Assembly: GCA_947184155.2 (NCBI GenBank)
Contig: CAMXCT020000518.1
Location: 97,416 to 161,415, forward strand
Source of the DNA: Cladocopium goreaui
Lineage: Eukaryota > Sar > Dinophyceae > Suessiales > Symbiodiniaceae
Reading direction: 5' to 3'
Length of the DNA stretch: 64,000 nt
Of this stretch, positions 25,348 through 54,089 are shown one piece after another; the first letter of the stretch is position 1, and every line of letters begins with the position of its first letter. The position numbers and the translations under genes are program-made. The notes under the pieces are model-generated. The model made no database searches. It had not been told where the DNA came from and saw nothing but the letters and a program-made list of their open reading frames with translations.

Positions 25348-25689
25348 ATGGCGGATCAGGAAGGAGTTGCTCAGCCGGCGGCACAGCCAGAGCTGCCAAT
25401 CGGCGAGCCGGAAGCCTTGCAGCCTGCAGCCCCGCTGGAGGAAGAGCAGGCCCAGCATGTGGAGGACTTCTTGGCCCAGGAGCTTGAGGAGGCTGATGTG
25501 CAGTCCTTGGCCCAGCGGTCCCAGCGGTCCCACTACCAAGATCCCCTCGTGGAGGCCGCGTTTGACCACAACCAGCGGGCGCAGCGCGAGATCGTGGAGA
25601 GCGTCAGCACTCTTCTGAGCCAGCAGCCCGCCATGAGCGCAGAACTCCTGATGCTGCGCAGAACTCTATGTTGCTGGCTTCAGCTGTAA
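25348..25689 (+). CDS. Acidic Gln/Ala-rich protein fragment of unknown function
   Basis: The ORF starts at the ATG at 25348 (MADQEGVAQP) and runs to 25689. It is rich in Gln, Ala and Glu and contains the direct repeat AQRSQRSH, encoded by the paired GCGGTCC motif. It overlaps the start of the methyltransferase frame downstream and may be its N-terminal extension in another frame or exon. I recognise no domain. Confidence 0.35.
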   Translation: MADQEGVAQPAAQPELPIGEPEALQPAAPLEEEQAQHVEDFLAQELEEADVQSLAQRSQRSHYQDPLVEAAFDHNQRAQREIVESVSTLLSQQPAMSAELLMLRRTLCCWLQL

Positions 25690-26866
25690 GCCCTTTTCAA
25701 TGCTTCACGTGAACACGAGGCTTCTTGAAGAGGACCAAGCAAAGATCTTCTACTCTGTAGTCACCAGGGTACGCAAGTCTCAGCCCGCTTCATTTGTTTT
25801 GGAAAACGTTCCAGGAATACAGCGCTGCATGGATGAAGTGATGCAGACGTTGAGGGATTTGGGTTACATGGTGGTAGTTCACCTGCTCAATCCCACGGAT
25901 TTAGGTGAGCCCGTCAGCAGGCCGCGCTACTATTTTGTAGGAGTTCGACAGGATGTGGCCATTGTTGGTGAAGAAGTGGCTCAAGGCATGTACAACCATA
26001 TTTGGCAAAGGTTGAAGAGCTCCAGCGGTCCTGCGGTCCCACTTGGCAAGAGGCTCTTGCCTGCAGAGCACAAGCTTGTCTTGGAAAACCAGTCCCTTCG
26101 CCAGCAAAGGTGGGAAGATGCCAAAGCTGCAAACTTTGGTGGCGACAGTAGGTCGCAGAAATGGAAGCAGCGCCATGCAGCCTGGCAGTTGGAGCATGCT
26201 GAGAGCCAGATCCAGCCAGACCCAAGCATGCCAAGCCCTGATGAACTTTTTCTTCACCTACCACGTGAGCGTGATGTGTGGAAGAACTTGCTGACGGACA
26301 AGAGCATGCCTAGACTGGCAGTTGCTGACTTGTCCCAAAGTTTGGGCCGTGTGCCTTTGCGATCTGATTGCACACCTACCATCACCCCTGGGTCCCACGT
26401 GGTTGTGTCTGAAGCTCGGAGAATGTTAGCTCCTATGGAAAAGCTCTTGCTACATTGCCTGCCAGTGCACACCATGTCCTTTGAAGGCATAACCGATGCT
26501 GAGTTGGAGGACATGGGTGGGAACATGATGCATCTCCAGACTGTGGGAGTAGCAATGTTGGTTGCCATCGCCCTTGTGGATTGGGCCCAGCCTGGGTCTA
26601 GATGCGGGAGATTGCCACAAGAAGGCAACATGGTTCTTGCGGTCCATGCGGTCCCTTCGGCCCCCATGCCAGCAGCAAGAAAGAAATCGCTGACTGCGGC
26701 AGAGAAGAAATTAGAAAGGCAGCTCCGTGAGCGATTCGGATTGAAGGTTGGCATCAAAAGAAGAGTGAAGGTTGACGCCTCAAGGCTAAAATCCCAGAAG
26801 AAGGTGAAGCTTCCCTGCTTACCTTTGCACAAAGCGTGCCTGCGTGGAACACGCTGGGCAGGCTGA
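25652..26866 (+). CDS. C5 cytosine DNA methyltransferase, N-terminally truncated
   Basis: The frame is open from 25652, after a TGA at 25649, and its first ATG is at 25700. Before that ATG it reads ELYVAGFSCKPFS, which matches the catalytic motif IV pattern (GFxCxPFS, active cysteine) of C5 cytosine methyltransferases. Motif VI is FVLENVPGI (the ENV signature), and motif VIII is GEPVSRPRYYFVGVR. The C-terminal part is Lys/Arg-rich. No SAM-binding motif I is visible upstream in any frame, so either an exon lies further away or the gene is truncated. A splice acceptor could lie at about 25660 (gcgcag). The protein would transfer a methyl group from SAM to cytosine in DNA if the missing part exists. 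It could be a retrotransposon-captured or retrocopied methyltransferase. Confidence 0.75.
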   Translation, partial: CCAELYVAGFSCKPFSMLHVNTRLLEEDQAKIFYSVVTRVRKSQPASFVLENVPGIQRCMDEVMQTLRDLGYMVVVHLLNPTDLGEPVSRPRYYFVGVRQDVAIVGEEVAQGMYNHIWQRLKSSSGPAVPLGKRLLPAEHKLVLENQSLRQQRWEDAKAANFGGDSRSQKWKQRHAAWQLEHAESQIQPDPSMPSPDELFLHLPRERDVWKNLLTDKSMPRLAVADLSQSLGRVPLRSDCTPTITPGSHVVVSEARRMLAPMEKLLLHCLPVHTMSFEGITDAELEDMGGNMMHLQTVGVAMLVAIALVDWAQPGSRCGRLPQEGNMVLAVHAVPSAPMPAARKKSLTAAEKKLERQLRERFGLKVGIKRRVKVDASRLKSQKKVKLPCLPLHKACLRGTRWAG

Positions 26867-27780: not shown

Positions 27781-27910
27781 CCACGCCGCTTATAGCTTCA
27801 GAATTTTTGAGGATTTTGCATCTTCGCATGGCTTAGTGGATCTACGCATGATTTAAGTGCATCTTCGCATCAATGTCATATTTGTATAAATATGTATAAT
27901 TATGTATATA

Positions 27911-28031
27911 CCCATGCATTGAGTTTGGCAGGCTTGGGTGTGCATGTATCATCTTTAAGTGTTTCAATGAATGCTACCATTTTGGCTCAAGTAAACTTGA
28001 ACCAAAATAGCATTCATTGCTGTTTTCTTTC
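27911..28031 (+). repeat. Terminal repeat A1 with spliced-leader-like hairpin
   Basis: The repeat is identical to 37531-37651. Positions 27965-28019 form a long imperfect hairpin. CAATGAATGCT (27965-27975) pairs with AGCATTCATTG (28009-28019), ATTTTGG (27979-27985) with CCAAAAT (28002-28008), and TCAAGT with ACTTGA around a 2-nt loop. The left arm contains CCATTTTGGCTCAAG (27977-27991), which equals the last 15 nt of the dinoflagellate spliced leader. Confidence 0.9.
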
Positions 28032-28033
28032 TT

Positions 28034-28063
28034 GGTCTTGGTAAGGGGTGACCTTTCCAGACC
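28034..28063 (+). repeat. GGNGA hairpin 1 (loop GGTGA)
   Basis: The loop is GGTGA at 28047-28051. Inner arms AAGG/CCTT, then one T-T mismatch, GG/CC, one bulged T, and GGTCT/AGACC. It sits directly after terminal repeat A1. Confidence 0.7.
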
Positions 28064-28085
28064 TTGATTGGGTGGTTCAAATTAT

Positions 28086-28106
28086 ATACAAGGGGCGACC
28101 TTGTAT
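28086..28106 (+). repeat. GGNGA hairpin 2 (loop GGCGA)
   Basis: ATACAAGG (28086-28093) and CCTTGTAT (28099-28106) pair over 8 bp without mismatch, around GGCGA at 28094-28098. Confidence 0.85.
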
Positions 28107-28940
28107 GCAGCGCAAACTCCCAGGAATCGATATCCCGGCAGCCACTGAGGCGAAGATCCTTCATGCTGCTGCTTTCCTGGAGTTCAAGAGCCACGTGGAA
28201 AGGCTGGCGCGGGAGGGCTCTGATGCTGCAGCATACACATGCTGGATGCATGGCGTTGAAGTGTTGCATTCCCCCTACGTCATCACGACTGGGACAGATT
28301 CAGAGCTTTTCCCCCCCCTGCCGAAGATACCCTGTTGCCTTGATGACTGCCAGCGTTGCGCAGCTCATGTGGGGGGGTTCAAGTTCCCGTGGCTCGGCTT
28401 GTGGAACAGCCGTGGCGTTGTGCTGCCCGATGATGTGGCGCCGCGGATGCTTGGGCGTACTACTACCAGCACCAGGACCCCATGGACCTGCTGCTGGTCG
28501 CTGCCTATACGAAGCACAAAGTGGCCGCTGACATCGTGCCCCAGGATCTCTACGGGTTGCAGCTCAGGTGCTCAGCGGGCGACGCTGGGCAACTGGGCTT
28601 GGGGGAGCTGTTCGATCAATGGAGGAGCTGGCTCAGATGCACAGGCCCTCACGAGCTCCTACCGGTCTTCCTCGAGCCGCGGCATTTCCCCAGAGCACCT
28701 AGGGGGCGACCCTGGGTGTCCTGGGGGCGAGAAGGCGCCAGGGCACCTCGAGCGCTATGTGGATGGCTGGAATGCCAGGATGCAGGCATGCTCCAGCTGG
28801 GCACCGCCTGCACAGAGTGCGGAGATCCCACCAGGCGCGTGTGCTGGGCATGCTGCGTCGGGATGTGTAGTGACTGCTTCACCTGGCGTGAGCCATGCAG
28901 CACTTGTGGAGGACGTAAGAAGATGTTTGCTGCAGGTTGA
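28105..28940 (+). CDS. Cysteine-rich protein of the YR element, needs one -1 frame change
   Basis: The first ATG in the opening frame is at 28105. The frame open from 28048 begins with GTG inside hairpin 1, so it is unlikely to be the start. The first frame carries plausible protein to about 28455 (CCLDDCQRC cluster). Between 28460 and 28940 the plausible frame is the -1 frame, which ends with CTECGDP..., then CWACC, CSDC and CSTCGG, a dense zinc-binding cysteine cluster. The alternative in the original frame is Ser/Thr/Arg low complexity. It may be a zinc-finger accessory or DNA/RNA-binding protein of the element. I cannot name the family. Confidence 0.5.
28571..28589 (+). repeat. GGNGA hairpin 3 (loop GGCGA)
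   Basis: CTCAGCG (28571-28577) pairs with CGCTGGG (28583-28589), including one T-G wobble, around GGCGA at 28578-28582. Confidence 0.7.
28696..28718 (+). repeat. GGNGA hairpin 4 (loop GGCGA)
   Basis: CACCTAGGG (28696-28704) pairs with CCCTGGGTG (28710-28718) over 9 bp with one T-G wobble, around GGCGA at 28705-28709. Confidence 0.85.
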
Positions 28941-29025
28941 TTTTATGACAGAGGAGGCACCTCTGAAGTCACCGCAGCATCTTTTTGCTCTCCGCACCTT
29001 AGCAATCTTGTTAGGGTGCAGCGCC

Positions 29026-31936
29026 ATGGCATCAGGCGGCAAAGGCTACTACGCAGCTCAAGCGGCAGCTTCGTCCTCGTCAGGGGGTGACCCTGAACCG
29101 GGATGGAGAGCAGCCGACTCCTTGATGATGATAGCTGCACAGCGTGCGCGTCAATGGAGGGAGAACGAAGGCCTCCTGGACGACAACGACTTCGCCTATG
29201 CCTACACCGACTACGATCAAGTCGTTGGACTAGCTGGCCATCACGTAGCAGATGACTGGCTGCAGACAAGAGCAAGGGTGGAAGAGCACCTCCTTGCTGC
29301 TGGGGCCAAAGTCGTGGAGGACAACCCTAAGGGTTCCGTCACTCTGCGCCCTGTGCGCAAGACAATCTACAAGAAAAAGCCCAAGGCCGTCAACGTCACC
29401 AAGAACCTGGATGAGGCCGTCCAGAAGCGGGTGAACGGCTTGGTGTCGATGTTCGTCGGAATGGGCGCATACAAACCAGCTGGCATCTTGACAGACACCC
29501 TCAAGGCCGAATGGAAACAAACGTGCAAGAGGATCGCCGAGAAGAAGGTGAAGGACGCAGAGAAGGCGACCATTGACCGAGTGGTCAACACCTGGTTGGA
29601 GCTGAGGGCTTTCTTGGAGAGTCGGGGGCGACCCGCTCCTCCTGGAATGGTCGACCTGGATCAGTTCCTCAACCACACCCAGGCGCCAGCACGAGCACTC
29701 CAAGCCTTGAAATGGATGAACAAGAATGCCGACCAAGACATGGAGCTGGGAAACTTGCAAGTGCCTACAACACCCAGGGCGACTGGGCAGCGTGGGCAAG
29801 CACCGGTGGTGGAGCCGCCATTAGTGCAGGCCTTGGAGGACCGCATCACGGAGTTGCACGCGGTCGGCGATGAGAGGTGGTCAGTTCTTCTGGCTCCTTG
29901 GATCATGTCGTTTGGCTGTTTGAGGTATGCGCACATCGCGCGGTCAGAACCTCGGCGCCTCACCGCTGCATTCCTCCATTGCAGGTGCCCTAAGGGAAAA
30001 CAAAAGCATGCCCGCGAAGGTTTCGACTTTGCGGTGCCGGCCACATTCGCCAACGGCTTCTTTTGGGCCAAGGAAGTGCTGGAGGCATACAGGACGCTGG
30101 CACCAGCAAGGCAGAGACTTGCAGGCCTTTGTTTTTCAGACGAAGGGCGCCCATGGACGATCCTAGAAGTGCAAGAGACGATGCAACAGGAAATGTCCGT
30201 GATCTGACCACCTACAGCTGGAGGAGGCTTGCACCCACGGTGGCCCAGTTGTTAGGATGCAGGCCTGAAGAAATGGCAGCCCTGGGCGACTGGCAAAACA
30301 AGAGTGAGCAACCAGAGGTGGGGGCGATGGCATTTCACTATTCTTCGGCAAAATACGCCGCGTCAGTCAAGGTGAAATCCCTGATCTGGGGCGCTACGGC
30401 CAAGCTCGCTAGCAACCTGCTGTGGGAGGTGATCCCGCAGGCAGAGCTAGATGCAGCCCGAGCTCATGGCCTTACTGAAGCTGACAGGTTGCTGCGACAA
30501 GACCGCCAACCTATTTGGGCCTCTGCACATAGCTTCCAGGACGTGAAGAAGAGGCTCAAGTTGTCACAGCAGTTTGTTGAAGCGGCACAGCAAGCCCGGC
30601 AAGAGGCCGTAGCCGCACCGGCACCTCAGATGCCTGATCAACTCAATGGCAAGGTGCTGACGGCCACTTTGAAGAATGGTAAGGCCATTTGCCCGGAGTT
30701 CCAGACGGACGAGTGCCCGAATCCGGCAGACTCCTGCCCCTTCGGAGTGCACTTGTGTGCCATTCTACAAAAGTCAGGACGGGCATGTGGTGGCAAGCAC
30801 GGTGCAGGCGTCTGCAACATCAAGCGGGCGGTGTTGGCCGCAACAGCAGTGCCAGCGGCACCCAAGCCATCGGCCACCTTGGTGCCGGCAGCCGTGGGGG
30901 AGAAGGCCACTTTTGGCCGGAAGAGGACCGCGGCGAGCGGTGCCACTGACGACGAGATGGCCGAGGTGATGCGCGCAGCTGTCAAGAAAGCCCGAGGTCA
31001 GGCTGCACCCAAGACTCCGCCCAAGGCGCCAGCCATTGCAGCCCCCAAGACACCTCCGAAGGCTGCAGCCACTACACCTAAGCCACCGGTCACAGCTGCT
31101 AAGGCCAGGGCTACAACCACAACGCCGAAGCGCTTGGCCGCTCCTGGGAAGCCACAGATCAAGGCCATGCCAAAGAAAGGCCATGGCAAGGCAGCAGGAG
31201 ACACCTTGGACCTCCACTTGGAGCGTTTGGGTGTGGGCTCAGGGACAGCCCAGGCCCCGACTTGCATCTGGACATCCCGGAAGGGTGGTGGCATCTACCT
31301 GGCAGGACTTCCAATGAGGCAGACGGTGGACAAGTTCCCCAAGACAGCGTTGCAGATCTGCTGCTTCCCGAATGGTCCTGAGAGCCGGGGGGGGTGACCC
31401 TCCCGGGAGCTCAGTTGATGACCTTCGCGGCGGCATACAGCCAGGAACGCAACGAACAGTGGACGGACGTGTGGCCGGCCGTCAAGAACACTGTTTGGCA
31501 CGGCGACAACGTCGTGGTGCACTGCATCAAGGGGCGACACCGGGGTGCTTTCTTAGGCATCCTTTGCCGTGCATTGCTGGCCGGTGAGTCCATTGAGGAT
31601 GCCAACCACTACGTGGAGAGCCGCAGGGATACAGAGCTGAACAAGGTCATTCGCGACCAAGGCATGCGGAAGTGGCTGCACAAGACCTTCCAGGACACCG
31701 CGGTGGGAACACAGCACCCCGAGCCGCAGGGATATGCAGCTACGGAGAGGTCCAGCACCCATGTCACGGTCGAGGACGGCATCACCTTGTGCCAGCACAA
31801 GCAGGCCGATGGGAAGGCGAAGCGCCTGGTGAACCCATACATGTCCACGGACGTCTTTGAAGCTCTGGCATGGGAGCGCCCCTGGTGTGACCAGTGCCTC
31901 CGTCGAGCGCCAGCGTCATGGTGGCCGCCTGCCTAA
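29026..31936 (+). CDS. Tyrosine recombinase - CCCH zinc finger - dual-specificity-phosphatase-like polyprotein
   Basis: Three frames are joined by two -1 changes: 29026-30207 (ATG at 29026, MASGGKGYY), 30063-31397, and 31394-31936. Residues around 29919-29942 read LRYAHIAR (recombinase box I arginine). After the first change come YSWRR (30213-30227, box II with Tyr in place of the usual His), ALGDWQ, and HYSSAKYAA with candidate nucleophile tyrosines at 30339 and 30354. Next is a zinc-finger module (ICPEFQTDEC...CPFGVHLC...CGGKH..GVC, about 30690-30825), then an Ala/Lys/Pro-rich linker. The end is phosphatase-like: GGIYLAGLP, then HCIKGRHR (31520-31543), an exact HCx5R signature. The recombinase should integrate circular element DNA. 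The phosphatase role is unknown. The second change lies at G8 followed by TGA. Confidence 0.7.
29080..29096 (+). repeat. GGNGA hairpin 5 (loop GGTGA)
   Basis: TCAGGG and CCCTGA pair over 6 bp around GGTGA at 29086-29090. Confidence 0.7.
29619..29638 (+). repeat. GGNGA hairpin 6 (loop GGCGA)
   Basis: CGGG/CCCG flank GGCGA at 29627-29631, then GAG/CTC after one bulged T. Confidence 0.6.
29773..29787 (+). repeat. GGNGA hairpin 7 (loop GGCGA)
   Basis: CCCAG and CTGGG pair over 5 bp around GGCGA at 29778-29782. Confidence 0.6.
30927..30941 (+). repeat. GGNGA hairpin 8 (loop GGCGA)
   Basis: ACCGC and GCGGT pair over 5 bp around GGCGA at 30932-30936. The closing pair is C-G rather than the usual G-C. 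Confidence 0.5.
31387..31404 (+). repeat. GGNGA hairpin 9 at a frame junction (loop GGTGA)
   Basis: A G8 run (31387-31394) leads into GGTGA (31393-31397) and CCCTCCC. The arms pair over about 6 bp, including one G-T wobble. The TGA of the loop is the stop codon of the upstream frame, and G GGG GGG is a slippery heptamer pattern. Confidence 0.55.
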
Positions 31937-32194
31937 GATGCCCAAGCCGAATTTTTGGCCTTTGCGCTGATCAGCAGCACTGGCCCGTTCCGGCCATGGA
32001 GAGCCGAATTCATCAGCTCGGGGCTTGGATAAGAGCTTCAATCCAGCCTGCATGACCGCCCCCAGCAGTAACATCATGCGCGAGAGGAAAATAGTAGAGC
32101 CAGGTGACTTTCAGTGGGTGCCCACTGAGCAAGTGCCGTGCCCTCATGTCCTTTCGTTGTGTTTTTCAAGTTTTTCCTTTCATGACAACGCACA

Positions 32195-32226
32195 AGACCA
32201 TCTGGGAGGGGGACCTCAGATAGTCT
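32195..32226 (+). repeat. GGNGA hairpin 10, long-armed variant (loop GGGA)
   Basis: AGG/CCT flank GGGA at 32210-32213. Then ATCTG/CAGAT (with two bulged G) and AGAC/GTCT follow, with one C-A mismatch. The loop looks like GGNGA with one base lost. Confidence 0.55.
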
Positions 32227-32373
32227 AGTGTACCATAGCTCTGTGGCGGCATGAAGGTGATGTCATGTGAGGTCGCAACATAGCTGTGCGTTGTACACAT
32301 GTCCAGATTTCACATCAGTGTATGTCAGGGTCCATTTATTTCATGCCACGCCAGGCGGTTCCAGCACAACGCA

Positions 32374-32386
32374 CGGGGGAGACCCG
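32374..32386 (+). repeat. GGNGA hairpin 11 (loop GGAGA)
   Basis: CGGG and CCCG pair around GGAGA at 32378-32382. Confidence 0.45.
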
Positions 32387-32405
32387 AGGCGCAGTTTTCA
32401 GTCAA

Positions 32406-32420
32406 AGGGAGGGGATCCCT
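32406..32420 (+). repeat. GGNGA hairpin 12 (loop GGGGA)
   Basis: AGGGA and TCCCT pair over 5 bp around GGGGA at 32411-32415. Confidence 0.45.
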
Positions 32421-32456
32421 GGGCCTTAGCTAGAGGGGTGTCCTCGAGAATAGGCC

Positions 32457-33656
32457 ATGGAGACTGATAAAGTCCCACTGGAAAAGGGTTCCCCAGAGGA
32501 AATCCTAAGGAAGTTGGGTGACAACTTCTCGTTGGATGATGGGGTAATTACAGCCCTGCTCCGGTTGGGCGTCGAAAGTTTGCAAGAGTTTCGTTTCCTC
32601 TGGGCATCGGAGCAAGCCATTGAGCCCTGGGTTGCTAAGCTGGGCCTGGGGGATAAGGCACTGCTGATGACGGCTCGAGTCCGCAGAGCATGGGCCGCAG
32701 TGGGACTCTACTATCGTCAGGTGGAGCAGGATCGATCCAAGATTGCACTGTCGGACTTGGACACCATGCTTGGGGAGACCGAGCTGCGCGACACCAAGCA
32801 GCAGTTTTGGAGACGCTATAAGATGCGCTTCCCCCCAGAGATCCACCCAGCAGACACCACCATCTCCAGAGTCGCCAGAGAGATGCAGAAGCGCATGCTT
32901 TGCGTGTACAACATATGGAGAGTGAAAACCCTTCAATTCCAGCTCACTACATCGCAGAAGAAGCGCAAACTCAGCGAAGGACTGTTCTTGGAAGATGGCG
33001 ACGATGAGGAGGTGGTTACCCATGATGTCGACAACTACCTGGACAGGTTGTTCACCCTGATGTTGGCTTATGCCATGGCAGGGTGCTCTGGGGTGACCGG
33101 AGCACCAGATGCCGCGCAAGAGCTCAACTTAGGAGCCGATACAGTCAAGTTTGTCAACGTCCCCATGGACATCGTCTACAAGTACTACTTCAGAGCCAAG
33201 CGCAGTGTTGCAAGTTTGCCTGCATCACAGCGCATGCAATGGCTCCAGGCCAAAGACGTGGAGGAACGCAGTGAGTGGGTGTCCAAATTTCGTGAGTCTA
33301 CGATGAGCTTGGGACAGGTGATCAGCGAGATCTACACGTCCAGGGACGCACATTGGTCTGCACCAGGGCCTGCTACCCCGGACAGGAAGAGTGCAGCCCC
33401 CACCGCAGCCTCTACTGCAAGTCCATCTAAGGTGCCGCCAAGCACATCACCCTTGAAGTTGGGCAAGCCGATCAATGGCAAACCCGTGGCGACGGCAATG
33501 AAGGATGGTACCAAACTTTGCCCGCAATTTCAACGAGGCGGCTGCAAGGCCAAACCATGTCCTCAGGGAGCCCATCGATGCGGAGCAGTTGTCAGGAAAG
33601 ATCGGGTATGTGGAGCGTTCAACCACGGTGCAGCCAATTGCACTGGTAAGCGTTGA
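32457..33656 (+). CDS. gag: Gag-like protein with C-terminal CCCH-type zinc finger
   Basis: A 399-residue ORF starting at an ATG in good context (gccATGG). The N-terminal 300 residues are mainly helical and charged, as expected for a capsid-type protein, without recognisable motifs. A Pro/Ser/Ala-rich linker (about 300-335) leads to KLCPQFQRGGC...CPQGAHRC...CGAFNHGAANC. This zinc-finger module is clearly homologous to the one in the recombinase polyprotein: both are preceded by NGK..AT.K.G. The ORF ends in TGA at 33654, and the same frame stays open through to the methyltransferase-like ORF, so stop-codon readthrough is possible. The gag role is inferred from position and domain plan. Confidence 0.6.
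   Translation: METDKVPLEKGSPEEILRKLGDNFSLDDGVITALLRLGVESLQEFRFLWASEQAIEPWVAKLGLGDKALLMTARVRRAWAAVGLYYRQVEQDRSKIALSDLDTMLGETELRDTKQQFWRRYKMRFPPEIHPADTTISRVAREMQKRMLCVYNIWRVKTLQFQLTTSQKKRKLSEGLFLEDGDDEEVVTHDVDNYLDRLFTLMLAYAMAGCSGVTGAPDAAQELNLGADTVKFVNVPMDIVYKYYFRAKRSVASLPASQRMQWLQAKDVEERSEWVSKFRESTMSLGQVISEIYTSRDAHWSAPGPATPDRKSAAPTAASTASPSKVPPSTSPLKLGKPINGKPVATAMKDGTKLCPQFQRGGCKAKPCPQGAHRCGAVVRKDRVCGAFNHGAANCTGKR
33082..33106 (+). repeat. GGNGA hairpin 13 (loop GGTGA), 10-bp stem
   Basis: GGTGCTCTGG (33082-33091) pairs with CCGGAGCACC (33097-33106) over all 10 positions with one T-G wobble, around GGTGA at 33092-33096. It lies inside the gag-like ORF and encodes part of GCSGVTGAP. Confidence 0.9.
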
Positions 33657-33661
33657 CACGC

Positions 33662-33692
33662 CCCAGAAGAGGAGGCGGCTGCCTCTTTTGGG
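33662..33692 (+). repeat. 11-bp hairpin between gag-like and methyltransferase ORFs
   Basis: CCCAGAAGAGG (33662-33672) pairs with CCTCTTTTGGG (33682-33692), including one G-T wobble. The loop is 9 nt and contains GGCGG rather than the family loop. It follows the gag stop by 6 nt. Confidence 0.65.
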
Positions 33693-33706
33693 TCAGATGA
33701 GCTAGA

Positions 33707-33733
33707 GCCGCAAGAGGGGCGACCTCTTATGGC
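33707..33733 (+). repeat. GGNGA hairpin 14 (loop GGCGA)
   Basis: AAGAGG/CCTCTT pair around GGCGA at 33718-33722. After one C-A mismatch, GCCG/TGGC extend the stem, including a G-T wobble. It overlaps the ATG at 33729. Confidence 0.85.
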
Positions 33734-34439
33734 AGATCTCATGGCAGGTCCCAACGCACCCCTCACCAAAGCATTCATCAGTTGCGGGTGGCAATGCATT
33801 ACAGTGGATTGGTTGTTGGATGACAGCCATGACCTGTCAGATGAGCGCCGGCAACAATCCCTGAGCAAACAGCTTGAAGAGGTGATCTTCATAGCGGCAG
33901 CTATCGACTGTTCGACAAAGAGCAGGGCCAGGGAGATCCCCAGGAAGTTTGAAGACGGGCGGCCAGCCCCTGGTCCTCTTCGATCCGAGGTCTACCCTGA
34001 TGGCCTGCCTCATCTCAACAGCCGGGATGCCCAAAGAGTCGACCTTGACAACAAAGCCTGCAACTATGTCTTGGGAGAAATTCAGAAGTTGCGGGATAGG
34101 GGGGGAGGCAGTGTGCGTGAAAACCCTGCCCGTTCCTTGCACTGGTGGACGTCCACAGAGGTGACTATGTGGGAATCGGGACAATGGTTCGACACAGCCT
34201 ACGCGGCATGTACTTTGGGTGGGGCGCGTTGCAAGCATCAAGTGCTACGACACAATGTGGAGGAGATCCAACGCTGGCCCCCAGCCAATTGCCACCATGT
34301 GCACGACCCACAGGAATGGACCCCCTACACCTCCGACGGCCAGCGGTTTACCCATCCAAAGAAGAGGCAGAGTACACAGCAGTCCTTGCCTTTGCCATTG
34401 CAGTGTCGGCTAGTTGGTGGGCAGTCCGCACAGGTCTAG
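33729..34439 (+). CDS. Methyltransferase-like domain of the YR element
   Basis: The ORF opens with MADLMAGPNAPLTKAFISCGWQ. FIAAAIDCSTKSRAREIP (about 33890-33945) has the shape of a methyltransferase catalytic motif, with a Cys in the place of a C5 PC motif. PLRSEVYPDGLPHL follows, then GSVRENPARSLHWW (about 34107-34147), whose ENP resembles motif VI. DIRS elements often carry a methyltransferase domain next to RT-RNase H, so the position fits. Whether it methylates DNA is unknown. Coding similarity leaves this frame at about 34345 and resumes in the -1 frame (YPSKEEAEYTAV), so the protein is probably fused to RT by a -1 change. Confidence 0.55.
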   Translation: MADLMAGPNAPLTKAFISCGWQCITVDWLLDDSHDLSDERRQQSLSKQLEEVIFIAAAIDCSTKSRAREIPRKFEDGRPAPGPLRSEVYPDGLPHLNSRDAQRVDLDNKACNYVLGEIQKLRDRGGGSVRENPARSLHWWTSTEVTMWESGQWFDTAYAACTLGGARCKHQVLRHNVEEIQRWPPANCHHVHDPQEWTPYTSDGQRFTHPKKRQSTQQSLPLPLQCRLVGGQSAQV

Positions 34440-37297
34440 CCGTCCTGGATGTCCCACGCATGCCCACGTTCCTGTCAGTCGGACGCCGTGAACATTGGCT
34501 GGATATGGACCCGCGTGCAATGCGGGAGTGGGCAATGGCACCACTGGCGGTGACGCTGGGCCTCACAGAATCCTTGCGGGCTGAACGATCGGGGTTACCG
34601 GTCCGAAGGCTCGTCAAGGAGGTGATGATCGAGAACAACAAGCTACCACGCAAGACCATCTACGTCGGCCGAGGCAGCTTTCATCATCGCCTATCGACGA
34701 CCAAGTGGAAATCGCCATGGACACCGGGCCACAACTGCGAAGCCGGTGAATGGCCGGCTAGGTACATTGTCCATATTCGAACATCACCTTTGTGGGACGC
34801 CTTGCATGAGCTTAGCAATATGGAGCTGGCGTGCGACTGCCCCATGGAGCACCTGTGCGAAGCGGACATGCTCATTGGCCTCTTTTTCGATGCCACCGCC
34901 CCTGGGGGTGACCCAATGCAGCGGGGCACCGATGGCCGATGGAGTAGGACTGTGGCATTGTTGCAAGGGATCCAGGCTATCCCCAGGGGGGTAGCCCTAC
35001 CCATGATGAGCCAAGAAGCACTGGTATTGGCATTCCAAAAGCTTTTCCCCGAGCACTGGTTTAAAAACTACAAGTTTGCAATGATTGAAGACCTCATCAA
35101 CAGCCCGCCCTTCTGCTCATATGCCACCTGGCTTGCAGAGCGAGGAGAAGCTTGGGACGGGCCCCTAGTCCCGCATCTGGCTGCCGGGTCAGTGAGGCAG
35201 CTTGCACGGATTGGGGACGGGTGCCAAGTGGGTGCGATGACACACCGTGCCGCTTTGCCCCCACTGCTGCCGTTCAACTTGGATCCTGAGGACCATTTCA
35301 ACCAAGCAGTCCAACGAGCCCAGCACCCGTTGCCCTACGAAGACCTCCCAGTCGTCGACTTAGACCTGGAGTTCGTAGCAGATGCCTATGTGGCACATGG
35401 CCAGCAGTTGCGCCCGTGGCGACAGCAGGCAGTCGGGGCCATGCGAGAGCTGAAGAGACGCTGGGAGGGGGTGACCCTCCACTTGCGATCCTTCCAGGAG
35501 CCGGCCGTCCAGCAGGTAACACGGCACCGCGATGTGGGGCTCATCGCATTGCTGATGCTGCTGACATCATGGGCAGACACCAGCTTTCCCTATGGTCTGA
35601 TCCGTGGGCTGCCTGCAGTGGGCTACGCACCACCTTATGGGATATTCCCCCAACAGCCAGCTGAGGTGATCAGCATGGCAGATGTGTTGGAGGGATGGCA
35701 GGAACACAATCAGCACATCTTGGGCCAGCTGAGAGCAGGCAAGGATGATGAGTTCCTCCCGCAGCAGTCATTGGAGGACGCAGCGAATGGTTTCTGCACA
35801 GAGCCCTTGCGACGGACAGATTTCCTGCGGGCCATTGGCGACAAGGCCCATCGATTGATCCCGCGTTGCGTGATCACACAGAGCTCAGGCAAGCAGCGTG
35901 TGATCGACAATGGGGACACCGGAGGACAATCAGCCTTGTCGTCTGATGCTAACAAGCTCACATTGTGCAGTCCATTGCGTCCTGCCCAGCACATTCGCCT
36001 TGCAATGCATCGTTGGACAGAGGATGAGATGGCCGATTTCTTCGAGAACGATGCCTGGGAAACAGGACAAGAAGATCTGCCTTCAGCATACAGGTATTGC
36101 CCTATGGCATTGCAGGAAAGTCTGGGCTGCGTGGTGGTGTGGTACCATCACGAATGGCAAACCCCTGCATACCAAGTCTACGCTGGGCTACTCTTCGGAC
36201 TGCCGCTGGCGGTTACATCATTCAACCGTTTTTCCAGACTATTGGAGGCACTAGCCAGGCGTTTTTGCCGAGTTTTGACATCCCTGTACTTTGATGATGC
36301 GACCATCACAGACTTGCAATCCTCAAAAGGGTCAGGCCAATGGGCCATGAATCAAGTGTGTTCTCTTATCGGCTCCCCCTTCGCAGAGGACAAGAAACAA
36401 CCAATGCAGAGCACCGGTACCTTTTTGGGATTGACTCATGATCTCAGCTCCATCAACCAAACAGGGCACGTACAGTTCTGGGCTCGAGAACGGCTCCATG
36501 ACAAAGTACGTGACATGTTGGCAACAGCCAGGGTGACTGGCCATTTCAGCCGAGGGGCAGCATCGAAGCTGTACGGCTTGGCCAATTTCCTGGAACAGGG
36601 CATCTACGGTCGAGTGGGATATGGCGGCCTCATGGCCATCAAAGCCAGGCAAGACGAGACAACCTCGACCATCACTCCCGAGATTGAAGCATGCTTCGAG
36701 GTGATCGAAGCGGTTATGCGCTTTCAGCCAAAGCGGGAATTTCCCGTTCTGCACCTGGATCATCTGCGATTTTTGGCAGCCTCCGACGCAGCTGTCGAAG
36801 CAGACAATCCTGGTTCAGGAGGTTTTCACCTGATCTTTTTCCAGCCTGACGGATCACAAATTCGTCACAGTTTTGTCGCGACCAACTGTGCAGAGCTCCG
36901 AACACTTTGGCAACCTGCAGAGACGCATATCGCCCAACTGGAACTATCTATGGTGCTCTACGCCCTTGTCGAAAGGCCTGATCTGTTTCGAAACCGACAC
37001 GGCCTATGGTTTTTGGACAACGTAGCAGCCGTCATGACGCTAGTGAGAGGACGTTCTAGCAATGCCGACTTAGCGAAGCTAGGTCATTTGATCCATCTAG
37101 CTCTGTTTGCACTGCGAGCCCAAGGATATTGGGAGTACGTCCAGAGCAAGAGCAACTGGGCTGACGATATCAGCCGACTTGGCGTCAATGATCCATGGTG
37201 GCGATGCCATGGTTTTGAATTTTATTCGTCGTACCTCCCTACAATCTTGTTCCAGCTACCCTTTGCAGCTGTCATTCTCACCTTCGAATACCTTTAG
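34145..37297 (+). CDS. Reverse transcriptase - RNase H of the YR element
   Basis: The open frame starts at a GTG at 34145, but plausible protein begins near 34345, where the upstream frame is left, so the true product is likely a fusion. RT features are CVITQSSGKQRVIDNG, the motif B-like GLLFGLPLAVTSFNRFSRLL, and the catalytic LYFDDATITD (F-D-D, aspartates at 36293-36298). The thumb-like region follows (FLGLTHDL). RNase H is recognisable from four acidic positions: AASDAAVEAD (about 36780), QLELSMVLYALVE (about 36940), FLDNVAAV (about 37014) and ADDISR (about 37160). This order without integrase is typical of DIRS-type elements, which use a tyrosine recombinase instead. The frame is uninterrupted for more than 950 codons and ends 22 bp before repeat B1. 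Confidence 0.85.
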   Translation: MDVHRGDYVGIGTMVRHSLRGMYFGWGALQASSATTQCGGDPTLAPSQLPPCARPTGMDPLHLRRPAVYPSKEEAEYTAVLAFAIAVSASWWAVRTGLAVLDVPRMPTFLSVGRREHWLDMDPRAMREWAMAPLAVTLGLTESLRAERSGLPVRRLVKEVMIENNKLPRKTIYVGRGSFHHRLSTTKWKSPWTPGHNCEAGEWPARYIVHIRTSPLWDALHELSNMELACDCPMEHLCEADMLIGLFFDATAPGGDPMQRGTDGRWSRTVALLQGIQAIPRGVALPMMSQEALVLAFQKLFPEHWFKNYKFAMIEDLINSPPFCSYATWLAERGEAWDGPLVPHLAAGSVRQLARIGDGCQVGAMTHRAALPPLLPFNLDPEDHFNQAVQRAQHPLPYEDLPVVDLDLEFVADAYVAHGQQLRPWRQQAVGAMRELKRRWEGVTLHLRSFQEPAVQQVTRHRDVGLIALLMLLTSWADTSFPYGLIRGLPAVGYAPPYGIFPQQPAEVISMADVLEGWQEHNQHILGQLRAGKDDEFLPQQSLEDAANGFCTEPLRRTDFLRAIGDKAHRLIPRCVITQSSGKQRVIDNGDTGGQSALSSDANKLTLCSPLRPAQHIRLAMHRWTEDEMADFFENDAWETGQEDLPSAYRYCPMALQESLGCVVVWYHHEWQTPAYQVYAGLLFGLPLAVTSFNRFSRLLEALARRFCRVLTSLYFDDATITDLQSSKGSGQWAMNQVCSLIGSPFAEDKKQPMQSTGTFLGLTHDLSSINQTGHVQFWARERLHDKVRDMLATARVTGHFSRGAASKLYGLANFLEQGIYGRVGYGGLMAIKARQDETTSTITPEIEACFEVIEAVMRFQPKREFPVLHLDHLRFLAASDAAVEADNPGSGGFHLIFFQPDGSQIRHSFVATNCAELRTLWQPAETHIAQLELSMVLYALVERPDLFRNRHGLWFLDNVAAVMTLVRGRSSNADLAKLGHLIHLALFALRAQGYWEYVQSKSNWADDISRLGVNDPWWRCHGFEFYSSYLPTILFQLPFAAVILTFEYL
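34903..34915 (+). repeat. GGNGA hairpin 15 (loop GGTGA)
   Basis: TGGG and CCCA pair over 4 bp around GGTGA at 34907-34911. Confidence 0.45.
35464..35480 (+). repeat. GGNGA hairpin 16 (loop GGTGA)
   Basis: GGAGGG and CCCTCC pair over 6 bp around GGTGA at 35470-35474, inside the RT ORF. Confidence 0.7.
36527..36541 (+). repeat. GGNGA hairpin 17 (loop GGTGA)
   Basis: GCCAG and CTGGC pair over 5 bp around GGTGA at 36532-36536, inside the RT ORF. Confidence 0.6.
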
Positions 37298-37318
37298 TGC
37301 TTTGGGAATTGAGTGCAT

Positions 37319-37530
37319 TGGGTGATTCCTGCAGAGCAGGTTCCAGCCTGGGTTGCCAGGCAGCTGACCAGTGGCGAAACTGGTCTGGGGCTATGTACGT
37401 GTCACATCGTGACAACCAAAGCAAACCTGAGGATTGCAGGTGAAATTGACTGAGCATAGGCATAGCTGTGGAAAAAGAAAGCTGCGGGAGCGCGAGACAG
37501 TATCTGTTTCATATGACACTTTGAGATGTA
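37319..37530 (+). repeat. Split direct repeat B1
   Basis: It matches 37799-38011 over its whole length with one substitution and one 1-bp indel. It contains four consecutive hairpins. They are CCTGC/GCAGG (37328-37340), GCCTGG/CCAGGC (37346-37361), GACCAGT/ACTGGTC with loop GGCGAA (37366-37385), and TGTCAC/GTGACA (37400-37414). The third has the family loop GGCGA plus one A. Confidence 0.9.
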
Positions 37531-37651
37531 CCCATGCATTGAGTTTGGCAGGCTTGGGTGTGCATGTATCATCTTTAAGTGTTTCAATGAATGCTACCAT
37601 TTTGGCTCAAGTAAACTTGAACCAAAATAGCATTCATTGCTGTTTTCTTTC
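37531..37651 (+). repeat. Internal repeat A2
   Basis: It is identical to A1 (27911-28031), including the spliced-leader-like hairpin (37585-37639). It abuts B1 directly, which is the expected sequence of the circle junction. Confidence 0.9.
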
Positions 37652-37750
37652 CCCACCCTCCCAACCCTAAGAGCCGACCTCCCGTGGAGATGTCCGCCTA
37701 GGTTAGGGGAGCCTGCACGGCAGGCGAGTACATAGCCTCTATCGGGGATC

Positions 37751-37773
37751 CTCTCTTGGGGCGACCAAGAGAG
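37751..37773 (+). repeat. GGNGA hairpin 18 (loop GGCGA), 9-bp stem
   Basis: CTCTCTTGG (37751-37759) pairs with CCAAGAGAG (37765-37773) without mismatch, around GGCGA at 37760-37764. It lies in the non-coding 147 bp between A2 and B2. Confidence 0.9.
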
Positions 37774-37781
37774 ACTTTCCC

Positions 37782-37798
37782 TCCCTTAGGTTAAGGGA
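37782..37798 (+). repeat. Palindrome at the inner edge of B2
   Basis: TCCCTTA (37782-37788) and TAAGGGA (37792-37798) are separated by GGT and abut the start of repeat B2. Confidence 0.75.
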
Positions 37799-38011
37799 TG
37801 GGTGATTCCTGCAGAGCAGGTTCCAGCCTGGGTTGCCAGGCAGCTGACCAGTGGCGAAACTGGTCTGGGGCTATGTGCGTGTCACATCGTGACAACCCAA
37901 AGCAAACCTGAGGATTGCAGGTGAAATTGACTGAGCATAGGCATAGCTGTGGAAAAAGAAAGCTGCGGGAGCGCGAGACAGTATCTGTTTCATATGACAC
38001 TTTGAGATGTA
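37799..38011 (+). repeat. Split direct repeat B2 (right end of the element)
   Basis: It repeats B1 (37319-37530), including the four hairpins. It ends in ...gatgta and runs into a TA/TATG microsatellite, while B1 runs directly into A2. Confidence 0.9.
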
Positions 38012-38110
38012 TATATATATTATGTATGTATGTATATGTATATGTGTATATGTATACGTATATACGTATATGTATATGTATATATATAATATATATATAT
38101 ATATGTAAAA
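38012..38110. repeat. TA/TATG microsatellite at the insertion site
   Basis: TA-rich repeat flanking the right end of the YR element. The left flank at about 27880-27910 is of the same kind (tatgtata). Confidence 0.85.
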
Positions 38111-38904: not shown

Positions 38905-38913
38905 TGAGTAGCC

Positions 38914-40248
38914 ATGGCAAAAGCTGTGCCCGCAGTTCGGCTTCGTGGCAAGCAGCCATGCCCTCAAAGAGTGAAGAAGAATGGCCAAAAGTCAAAGGGC
39001 AAGCAGACCAAGCCAAAACGAGACACGATTCGATGTCAAGCGTTGAAAGATGGCTTGTTGCCACCTGCTAGAAGGCCTTTTGCGCTCTTTGTCAAGGACA
39101 ACGTGCGTGGGCAGAAAGGAGGTGGGAGAAGCGAATGGCGGCTTGAGATGAAGCGCTTGGGGGCCATGTGGCACAAGTTACCCATTGACCAGAAGAAGCG
39201 CTACTTTGACCAATCCAATGCCAAGTTTGCCAAGCAGCATTTTGTGATGAAGCAGATGGGCATGCCACTGCGAAAGTCAAGCTCGCGAACAACTCACACG
39301 CTGGCAAAGGACGTGCTTCCAGAACCTGAAGATCCTGTCATGATCGGAGGCTACAAGGTGGTGAATGCGGATCCTGGCCTTCCTGATTGCCATCCCCTAG
39401 GTGAAGGCGCTTATGGCAGCGTTTTCCTTTGCTTAGACAAGCTTCAACGAAGATGTGCTGTGAAGGTCTTCAAGAAGAAGAGCGCACTCGAGGATCTCAA
39501 CCATGAGCTCGTCCTTTTGCAAGCAGTGCAAGAACAAAGCGACCAGAAACTCCGAGGATTTTACCCCTGCATTTTGGAAGCACAGCCCTGTTTCAAGCCT
39601 TTTCCATTTTTGGCTCTTGAATATTGTGGCTCCAGCTTGTTTTCTTTGCTTGGGGAAAAAGGAGCTTTTAGCGTAGATGACAGTCGCGCCATCGCTTTGC
39701 AGCTGAAAGCTGCAGTGCGTGGCTTGCACTCATTGCAGATTTTGCATTTGGATTTAAAAACAAGCAATGTGCTTTGGTGCGTTGTCCGGCGTGAGCTCAA
39801 GTTGGCAGACTTTGGGATGTCTGAATATATCCCAGGGTATGGTCCTTCAATTCGTTTTCCCATGTATGTAACAGCAAGTTACCGAGCCCCAGAATTGTGG
39901 CACGCTGCTCAAAGGGACCTTTCCAAGTGGTTGGGGCCTGCAGTCGATTTATGGTCGTTTGGTTGTGTTCTCTATGAGGTTGCAGTTGGAAAGATCCTTA
40001 TGCGCCCACTGCGCAACAACCTTTGTGGTTGTGAGAACACCATCAAGGAGTGGTGCCAGCAGTGGCAATCCTTGCAGAAATCATTGCAGGGATCAATAAG
40101 ACCAAGTCTTTCAAATGCACAGGTCAGCCGAAATTTTGACTATCGGCTGGTGAATCGTTTGCACTTGCTGGAACCAAGCTTCAGGCCAGCAATCAAGGCT
40201 ATGCTCAACCCGGATCCTGCTCAGCGAGATTGGGCAGGCATTGATTGA
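38914..40248 (+). CDS. HMG-box plus protein kinase fusion protein
   Basis: A 444-residue single-exon ORF. The N-terminus (1-50) is Lys/Arg-rich, like a nuclear localisation region. Residues about 52-110 (RRPFALFVKDN...W..LPIDQKKRYFDQSNAKFAKQH) resemble an HMG box, a DNA-bending domain. Residues about 158-440 are a Ser/Thr-type kinase. They show the glycine loop GEGAYGSV (163-170), the ATP lysine in CAVKVF (K184), the catalytic loop HLDLKTSN (278-285, D280, Leu in place of the usual Arg), DFG (299-301), APE (325-327) and DLWSFG (345-350). All core residues are present, so it is probably active. The non-RD catalytic loop suggests it does not need activation-loop phosphorylation in the usual way. 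The fusion suggests a chromatin-associated kinase (inference). Confidence 0.85.
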   Translation: MAKAVPAVRLRGKQPCPQRVKKNGQKSKGKQTKPKRDTIRCQALKDGLLPPARRPFALFVKDNVRGQKGGGRSEWRLEMKRLGAMWHKLPIDQKKRYFDQSNAKFAKQHFVMKQMGMPLRKSSSRTTHTLAKDVLPEPEDPVMIGGYKVVNADPGLPDCHPLGEGAYGSVFLCLDKLQRRCAVKVFKKKSALEDLNHELVLLQAVQEQSDQKLRGFYPCILEAQPCFKPFPFLALEYCGSSLFSLLGEKGAFSVDDSRAIALQLKAAVRGLHSLQILHLDLKTSNVLWCVVRRELKLADFGMSEYIPGYGPSIRFPMYVTASYRAPELWHAAQRDLSKWLGPAVDLWSFGCVLYEVAVGKILMRPLRNNLCGCENTIKEWCQQWQSLQKSLQGSIRPSLSNAQVSRNFDYRLVNRLHLLEPSFRPAIKAMLNPDPAQRDWAGID

Positions 40249-46308: not shown

Positions 46309-49300
46309 TTACAAGCCAAGGTTCTGAGCAAAAACATGCATGGCAGTTTCAGGCGCACTGTTCTGATTGTACCATTGTTGTCGAACTCTTTTGTCTGCAC
46401 GTTGCTTCAAAATCTCATCCGCATCATGGAGAATACATTTACCATACTTGAGGAACGTTCTCAACACCGTTGTGTCCATATCTTTTGTAAGTGAGTCCGC
46501 CATCTGTGCTGCGCTATGGACCCATTTAATGGCTACTCCTTCACGAAGACGATCCTTAATCACCAGGGCCTCAAGTAAAGTTCTGTATTCGGAACACTGT
46601 GGAATAGATGTTTGCTGAAGCAAATCATACAGGCTTTTGCAGTCCACAACAGCGTATGCGGTTGGTAGAGCTTTGAGAGTGGCTTCAGTCTCCTTCCAGG
46701 CTATTGCTGGGTTTAGCATCCATGCCCAATGCATTCTGGTCCAACTTAAAAGATCGAGTGCTCCGGACAAGGCATATGTCTCCGAGGCCAACGTACTAGA
46801 GACAACCCTGTTGATCTTTTTTGAGAACCAAACCAGTGGGCTTACTTTGGAGGACTTCTCTTGATCCACATCTTCAGTCGTGGCCAGAATGAGACAACCT
46901 TTTTGGGAGTTTGCTTTTTCACGTGTTGCAAATGCTGCATCTGAATATGACAAGAATCTCACCTTCTCAGGGTCTAAGGTTTGAACTCTTATACTTGTTT
47001 CAGAAAATCTTTTTGCATCATGGAGGAGGCGGTTCCCGGAAAGTAAATCATTCACTGTGGCGCATGTGATGCGAGCTTGCAACAAACTTAACCTACATGC
47101 TAAGTCAGGTCTGGTGTTCGTGGCGGCATACTGCAAGCTTCCTATTAACCCACGCAATTCCTGCAGTTCCTGTGTGGACACTGGGGATTCAGGGGTTTTT
47201 CTGCGGTCTTTGGGGACATTGATCGGGGGAATGTCCTGTACATACTCTTGTTGGCTGATGGTGATATCTCCTGATATTGCTTGGTTGACCTGGATGCCTG
47301 TGAAAGTGAACGAGCTTTGTCTCTGGCTTCCGAAAGGAAAACGCTTTTCTAGGAGAGATATGGTCTGATTAAAGGTAGTATCTCCCCCGCCGATGCCATC
47401 ATCTACATGTATTCCAAGTACCCCATGAATTTTGCTCTCATTAGTTCGAGGATTTTTCTTGGGTAGAATGAAAAGGCATGGGTCGAAAGGTGACATGACG
47501 AAACCAAGGGACAATAGGGCACTTTTCAATTCGCAATACCACAAAAGTGGGGCATTCACCAGTCCGTAAGCGCCCTTCAGCAATTCACATACTTCATTAT
47601 CTTGTAAGTTCATTTTGAGTCTAAGTTCCGATGGAGGTTCTACTCCCAAGATCCTAGAGTCTTGCCTGCTTCCGCGGAGAAATGCTGTTCGGATGTCAAA
47701 AGACCTGGCAGTCCACTTGTGGGATGCGATGCATTGCAATGCCAGCATCCGGCTGTCTCGCCCTAATGTCGGTGAATCTCTCGGCAAAGAGTCAATTTGC
47801 GGGTCTTCATATCCGAGGATAACCAGTCGGGCTTTTGCTTTTCGGGTTTGACCCGTTTCCTTTTGTTCAACTTCATCTAATGGTTTCCAAGAAAGAACCC
47901 AACGAGACCTGAGTAGCTGTCCTTCAGGGACCTTGTTTCTAAGTATCCTTCTCACTGTTTCGGTTGACAACCAGGATTCGAGTTCTTTTTCTTTGGCTTT
48001 GGAGAAAAGTTTTTGGTCTTCCGCATTGAGCTCACGAATTTTGACTTCTACCTTTTGACGTTTGGCGGCTGATGCAAGGAAGTTTTCTTGATAATCATAG
48101 GTCCTACCAAGGCACTTATGAAAATCGTCAATGGTCATTAGAATTTCTGCTTCCAAGCACTGAAGTTCCCCTGCAGGTTCACTTGAAATGAGATGATATG
48201 TGGGTTGTATTCCATCAACTTGAATGGGAAATTTTGTCTTTCCGGTCCAAGGTTCAGGCTGAGACAAATGGGCTGACACGTCTTTCTGCCATTCTTCAAC
48301 CTTTTGGAACTGCCCGCCCGTGATATAGCTCCCTTCCGTATGCCTCTGGTTTTGGATTGCATCCAGTGGTACTGGGCACTTCCATGCGTCTGACGGGAAA
48401 AACATGCGGAGTCGGGGAGTCACATGATGTCTAACCAACCAACCTTCTTGGATTTCCCAAAAATCATGTTGTGACGTCACTGCAACTAGATCTTGATCGC
48501 TATCATCAGGTATCGGTGTGATCACGGCAGGATCCATTGGAACTTCATTTGTTTCCGTTGATGATAATTGGTCATTATTCGGGCATATGGGTTCGGCATC
48601 AGGCTGTCCTACTGATGATGGTGGATGTGATGGGTTTACCTCGGGAGGATTATTTGGGTTATGTGTTAAATGAGGTGGATTGGGATTTGCACTGGATGAG
48701 GCCTCGACAATTACGTCTGGGTCTACTGAGGTGGTCTCATGGCGTGGTATGGAAAATTGAGGTGGTGAACTTTGTTGTGACAGCTCTCGAAATTGAAACA
48801 CTCCAGTACCGCTGCGTTCAGGCAATTGGAAAGACTGCAACTCAGCCTTGGAGATTCCGGACGCTTCATCTGCTGAAAGTTTTCGAATGTGTTCTGGGGC
48901 ACATCGGAACAATCTTGTCAAATGGCTGATCCACACCAAGTTGCGACCTTCGATCATGAGTATTTTGGCCGGCCCATGCCAGGCACCATCTTCTACTCCT
49001 TTGCCTGACTTCCAGTACATTACCATGTCACCTACTTGGAAATTCACACGGTCTGGTCGCGACCGGGCATGAATGGCCTTTCGGACGGCCGCACTGTGAT
49101 CGGCTTTGATGAACGCAATCCGGGCTGTCTCCCGTTTTGCCAGCATGCTCTGAAAGCGGCTGCCCTCAGTGGACTGTTCTTCGAGTCCGGCAAAGCTTGC
49201 ACTGTCGAGAAACACATTGGAATTACTACCTGGCAGTGGTTTCATTTTTCCTAAAACCCACATTTCCGGTGAAAAACCCTCATGTCGAGAAAGTGCATTC

Positions 49301-54069: not shown

Positions 54070-54089
54070 CCTGGATCAGCAGCTTCCAG

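Follow-up and report, generated by a model that had tools for sequence, protein, structure and literature searches.

A retrotransposon lying in the 64,000-nt stretch of dinoflagellate DNA analysed here (the window) had drawn attention, in a preliminary description made from the sequence alone, by numerous small hairpins with a constant GGNGA loop and arms that differ from site to site. The locus raises the question of whether such a family exceeds chance, which nucleic acid strand adopts the fold, and what the hairpins could be good for.

The repeat comparison revealed the order A-coding-B-A-B, that is, the split direct repeats of the DIRS/Ngaro-like elements (Table 1). For the reverse transcriptase domain PF00078, the window copy reached 17.8 bits and the homolog P0005 21.6 bits, both below the cut-off of 29.6; the homolog P0046 carries a precomputed PF00078 annotation, and both Asp residues of the FDD box were nearly invariant across 27 alignment rows. 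No recombinase match to Pfam was obtained for the element proteins scanned, and the recombinase-like motif TTYSWRR...LGDW...HYS was recognized by eye in the recombinase ORF. For the 398-aa ORF, the only one modelled, the fold comparison bearing on an encoded capsid gave no strong match. Relative to the intact homologous proteins, frame breaks were seen by eye at approximately 28440, 28720, 30195, 31387-31394, and 34345; either the copy is decayed, as it looks, or these are assembly indels, e.g., in a run of eight G.

Table 1. Repeats, coding regions, and GGNGA hairpins of the element (window positions; hairpins are listed by loop sequence)
Feature	Position	Strand	Remarks
A1 repeat	27906..28031	+	126 nt, 5' end of element; 99% to 37526-37651
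Tyrosine-recombinase-like ORF region	28045..31936	+	frame-broken; CCCH motif and phosphatase-like HCxxGxxR motif; all by eye
ORF encoding a CCCH motif (C-terminal) and a predicted SAM-like domain (N-terminal)	32454..33656	+	candidate hairpin reader
Pol region	33657..37297	+	frame-broken; DUF4326 and weakly matched reverse transcriptase
B1 repeat	37319..37547	+	two pieces, 98% and 94% to 37799-38028
A2 repeat	37526..37651	+	matches A1 repeat 27906-28031
B2 repeat	37799..38028	+	3' end of element
GGTGA	28043..28055	+	4 Watson-Crick pairs at loop, then T.T mismatch, more pairs; pairing 0.36 in context
GGCGA	28085..28107	+	9 pairs (8 Watson-Crick, 1 G.U)
GGCGA	28569..28591	+	9 pairs
GGCGA	28695..28719	+	10 pairs, two wobble
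GGTGA	29080..29096	+	6 pairs
GGCGA	29623..29635	+	4 pairs
GGCGA	29773..29787	+	5 pairs
GGTGA	30420..30440	+	8 pairs
GGCGA	30927..30941	+	5 pairs; pairing 0.00 in context
GGTGA	31387..31403	+	6 pairs; pairing 0.00 in context
GGAGA	32374..32386	+	4 pairs
GGGGA	32406..32420	+	5 pairs
GGTGA	32509..32529	+	8 pairs
GGAGA	32768..32784	+	6 pairs; pairing 0.01 in context
GGTGA	33082..33106	+	10 pairs, one wobble
GGCGA	33712..33728	+	6 pairs
GGTGA	33875..33891	+	6 pairs
GGTGA	34903..34915	+	4 pairs
GGTGA	35464..35480	+	6 pairs
GGTGA	35660..35674	+	5 pairs
GGTGA	36527..36541	+	5 pairs; pairing 0.00 in context
GGTGA	36692..36712	+	8 pairs; pairing 0.50 in context
GGCGA	37751..37773	+	9 pairs, all Watson-Crick; between A2 and B2

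A mechanical scan of positions 28034-37773 detected 19 GGNGA sites with at least five contiguous pairs, G.U allowed, in keeping with the at least 18 originally reported, and the stems quoted as examples (28086, 28696, 33082, and 37751) proved correct on rescan. When only Watson-Crick pairs were accepted, 14 sites with at least five of them were retained. Of the 23 perfect-stem pentaloop hairpins (at least 5 bp) in this stretch, 14 have the GGNGA loop, and the other nine represent nine different loop classes, none occurring more than once. Dinucleotide shuffles of the element gave on average 0.06 GGNGA hairpins (maximum of 2 in 300 shuffles) versus the 14 observed, whereas swapping the arms among the 80 GGNGA sites inside the margins gave a mean of 0.19 (maximum of 3 in 5000) versus 13. 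Among all loop words of 3-8 nt, with one N allowed, GGNGA ranked first, forming hairpins at 14 of its 85 occurrences versus 0.22 expected (p = 5.5e-21, uncorrected for the large number of words tested). Synonymous-codon shuffling of six hand-set coding segments yielded a mean of 0.42 and a maximum of 5 in 2000 versus 10 observed. The hairpins do occur in all coding frames, the loops of the 16 sites in these six segments starting at codon phases 0, 1, and 2 in three, three, and ten cases, respectively. All these nulls agree, hence the family is no by-product of the proteins, codon usage, or base composition, and the claimed excess over chance was borne out for this element, in which GGNGA stands far above the other pentaloops and the shuffled sequence.

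In the remaining 54 kb of the window, no GGNGA site with at least five Watson-Crick pairs was present on the + strand; under the looser rule, two weak, wobble-containing + sites were found outside the element (48001 and 48764), and the - strand of the whole window gave no GGNGA hairpin. The copia-like ORF in the same window (46309-54075, minus strand, 2588 aa, with RVT_2, an integrase core, and zinc knuckles) served as a negative control, and the loop-word scan disclosed no loop family in this element; the other window stretches scanned for loop words contained AT-rich, repeat-like, or weak families only. A covariance model built from the 23 retained sites gave these sites 17.0-25.1 bits, and no other place in the window exceeded 12.6 bits.

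Because these 23 sites were chosen by their loop, four of its positions are necessarily invariant; all four bases occur at the third position, with A at 32378 and 32774 and G at 32411. All 14 perfect sites carry GGNGA on the + strand, which is the coding, sense strand, and the word itself occurs 85 times on the + versus 34 times on the - strand of 27906-38028. The single internal mispairs within the stems comprised six G.U, no A.C, and three others, all of them small counts. Since G.U on the + strand corresponds to C.A on the - strand, the pattern of mispairs suggests that the hairpins likely fold as sense RNA. This one DNA copy thus demonstrates a GGNGA hairpin family that obeys a loop rule, has a fixed strand polarity, and is specific to the element.

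In a slightly different list of 23 sites, the closing pair was G-C in 16, A-T in five, C-G in one, and mismatched in one, and the second pair was G-C in 18; all kinds of pairs occurred further out. Minimum free energy folds of 35 nt formed the exact loop at 22 of the 85 GGNGA sites, and GGNGA accounted for 21 of the 101 hairpins at -5 kcal/mol or better, the next class for four. Placed in a 305-nt context, 18 of the 23 sites reached a loop-proximal pairing probability of at least 0.5 versus 1 of 59 other GGNGA sites; the five sites below this value were 28047, 30932, 31393, 32774, and 36532. Covariation among the paralogous sites amounted to 0.835 versus 0.217 in shuffles (0/500) and dropped to 0.16-0.32 when one arm was slid by 1-3 columns, but as the sites were chosen for pairing, this figure characterizes the family rather than testing it independently.

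Thirteen of the 23 sites lie in aligned proteins, the sites 28047, 28094, 28578, 28705, 31393, 32378, 32411, 33718, 33881, and 37760 being outside the protein comparisons. In close homologs, the hairpin-coded residues were ungapped (29/29 in P0004-P0007, 24/24 in P0106 and P0109-P0111, and 28/28 in P0227, P0231, P0234, and P0246); gaps at some hairpin sites occurred in P0238, P0243, P0247, and P0248. Residues that are ungapped in the close homologs indicate that the hairpins at these 13 sites are not inserted mobile units, which leaves the "tiny mobile hairpin" listed earlier among the candidate roles unsupported. The same residues ruled out that these 13 hairpins are stretches skipped in translation.

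Some of the encoded peptides were well retained: seven of the eight homologs examined have SGGDP at 29086 (AGGDP in the eighth), and the four closest Pol homologs all share CFEVIEA at 36700. Sites 34907, 35665, and 36532 were lost in P0006 and P0007, the last one also in P0005, and single sites were often lost at approximately 70-77% protein identity. In 12 of the 16 comparisons with homologs, hairpin-coded residues were identical more often than other residues, with p < 0.05 only for P0238 (p = 0.032). Among the residue changes explicable by a single nucleotide, 6 of 23 kept loop and pair versus 79 of 481 expected, which is not convincing, and 20 further changes require at least two nucleotides. 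The variable loop position was itself the exact target of two changes, one at 29778 (A to V; P0238) and one at 30428 (V to A; P0227, P0231, P0234, and P0243), an observation that is no more than suggestive. With so few changes keeping loop and pair, single sites seem not to be strongly protected over long times; their conservation appears modest, and they probably turn over between subfamilies. That the family is maintained in other copies during such turnover is our assumption. Detection by back-translation, applied to P0001 only, was without power: with arms of 6, 7, and 8 bp, GGNGA came 115th, 143rd, and 100th, respectively, among the 256 loop classes. Protein relatives are numerous, the homolog cluster P0004 alone comprising 439 member sequences. 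The scans of viral contigs, with P0001 among the queries, and of genome contigs gave no DNA-level relatives, and a DNA pattern derived from the A repeat matched none.

The earlier suggestion of selection on structure is supported by the fixed loop positions, the unrelated but complementary stems, the wobble polarity of the sense RNA, and the excess that survives synonymous-codon shuffling. Among the candidate roles, a putative one in protein binding or packaging fits best. We favour, with moderate confidence, the interpretation that a protein recognizes the hairpins as redundant sites dispersed along the sense RNA of a dinoflagellate retrotransposon of the split-repeat type. The reader protein would see G-G-N-G-A, exposed as a pentaloop at the tip of a short stem that is mostly closed by G-C or A-U; it would need only some stem, the sequence of which would be unconstrained. 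Recognition of the loop with the stem left free would let the hairpins fit over codons in any phase, and redundancy combined with free stems would allow individual hairpins to appear or vanish while many remain. We infer that a protein reads the GGNGA hairpins and that its purpose would be marking, packaging, or gathering the element RNA for reverse transcription.

The recognition loop of Smaug and Vts1 is CNGGN, to which GGNGA does not conform (all 23 sites, picked by that loop, are GGNGA), and many SAM domains bind proteins. Nevertheless, the Vts1 and Smaug SAM domains bind pentaloop hairpins, according to the accessible part of PMC1899508, and the element encodes a predicted SAM-like domain beside a CCCH motif, which makes its SAM-like and CCCH protein (Table 1) a natural candidate; the reader may thus be the element's own product. 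Tentatively, we propose a self-recognition code of the retrotransposon, in which many copies of its own SAM-CCCH protein would coat or gather the RNA bearing about 20 GGNGA hairpins. If true, the element would possess a cis-preference system comparable to Gag but without a capsid of known fold. To our knowledge, RNA selection in the split-repeat retrotransposons has not been described.

As the chief alternative, the same sequence evidence would suit a host RNA-binding protein that reads the hairpins in the control of stability, export, localisation, or translation, without any element protein, and nothing in the data names the reader. The absence of the family from the rest of the window, including the copia-like element, speaks against a host reader, although a host protein need not act there; we regard this explanation as rather unlikely. 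Short, stable stems are also what a structural role would call for, the capped hairpins compacting the RNA, blocking nucleases, or pacing reverse transcription with no reader of the loop. A sheared G.A pair across the pentaloop, with the third base turned out, would yield a GNRA-like cap. Such a role predicts enriched GNRA or UNCG tetraloops; instead, GGNGA tops the scan of 3-8 nt loops, and the element holds five tetraloop hairpins of at least 6 bp in total, with five different loops, none of them GNRA, which makes the structural role improbable.

Perfect Watson-Crick stems look alike on both DNA strands, as would suit an origin of palindromes around a GGNGA core in a process acting on DNA, be it hairpin transfer, template switching, or recombinase sites. 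The single orientation and the preponderance of G.U over A.C within the stems argue against it, and the hairpin-coded peptides are in line with the homologs rather than inserted; such a process is very improbable. The same orientation and G.U pairs, together with the constancy of the loop, disfavour the palindrome-making mutational mechanism raised in the preliminary description. Selection bias, i.e., a striking loop picked from the many possible loop words, has a negligible chance of being right for this copy, as the largest class among the 256 XYNZW loops in any of the 300 shuffles numbered 3 versus the 14 observed.

Returning to the favoured protein-recognition sites, several known systems offer partial parallels. 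In P22 and lambda boxB, a phage peptide recognizes a pentaloop that adopts a GNRA-like fold with one base extruded, but those are few sites with another loop sequence, in contrast to the family of about 20 members found here. Mitochondrial mobile hairpins such as byps are small hairpins inserted in coding sequence, unlike the GGNGA hairpins, which align in line with the homologous proteins at 13 sites. The dispersed stem-loop packaging signals of the ssRNA viruses and the hepatitis B virus (HBV), as far as the available parts of PMC6281560 and PMC8677749 go, comprise several stem-loops on one RNA with a short common loop motif (-RGAG- in HBV) and an otherwise variable sequence. The element likewise bears multiple stem-loops with one common loop motif on one RNA; it differs in being a split-repeat retrotransposon, in its exact pentaloop with four of five positions fixed, and in that no coat protein is named.

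Dispersed hairpins with a common loop are thus already known, the novelty being the split-repeat retrotransposon as the host and the unusually strict pentaloop. The literature search found no GGNGA-type pentaloop hairpin family, which is weak evidence, the subscription journals being largely outside its coverage, and the available part of a paper on Ty3 RNA (PMC11381356) contains no parallel. If the protein-recognition interpretation is true, dispersed packaging signals extend from viruses to a cellular retroelement. Hairpins with a fixed loop and free stems over coding sequence give a direct handle on RNA choice: mutants of the loop and of the stem can tell recognition and structure apart, and the element itself encodes the candidate reader. 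Moreover, comparison of loop classes can reveal such signals in one copy alone.

Dinoflagellate retrotransposons with cytosine methyltransferase genes have been described (PMC5890265, accessible part). The element resembles the SymbioDIRS-Dnmt3 elements of that report in the A-coding-B-A-B order and probably in the reverse transcriptase, weakly matched here, and the separate ORF with a tyrosine-recombinase-like motif; unlike them, it has no methyltransferase domain in the six of its ORFs that were scanned, and the word "hairpin" does not appear in the main text of PMC5890265. A fragment of a C-5 cytosine methyltransferase lies upstream of the element (25652-26866).

Behind the CCCH motif, the recombinase ORF contains the phosphatase-like HCxxGxxR motif (31382-31936), which is kept in P0226, P0234, P0246, and P0248; the Pfam DSPc match to this region is weak. 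In both A repeats (27977-27991 and 37597-37611), a stretch of 15 nt reproduces exactly the 3'-terminal sequence of the dinoflagellate spliced leader, as given in the accessible part of PMC6616646. These 15 nt lie in one arm of an imperfect palindrome with 23 pairs in the A1-copy fold. The stretch represents a spliced leader that was captured, or else a recombinase site of similar sequence. The ORF immediately downstream of the element (38908-40248) encodes a protein kinase domain.
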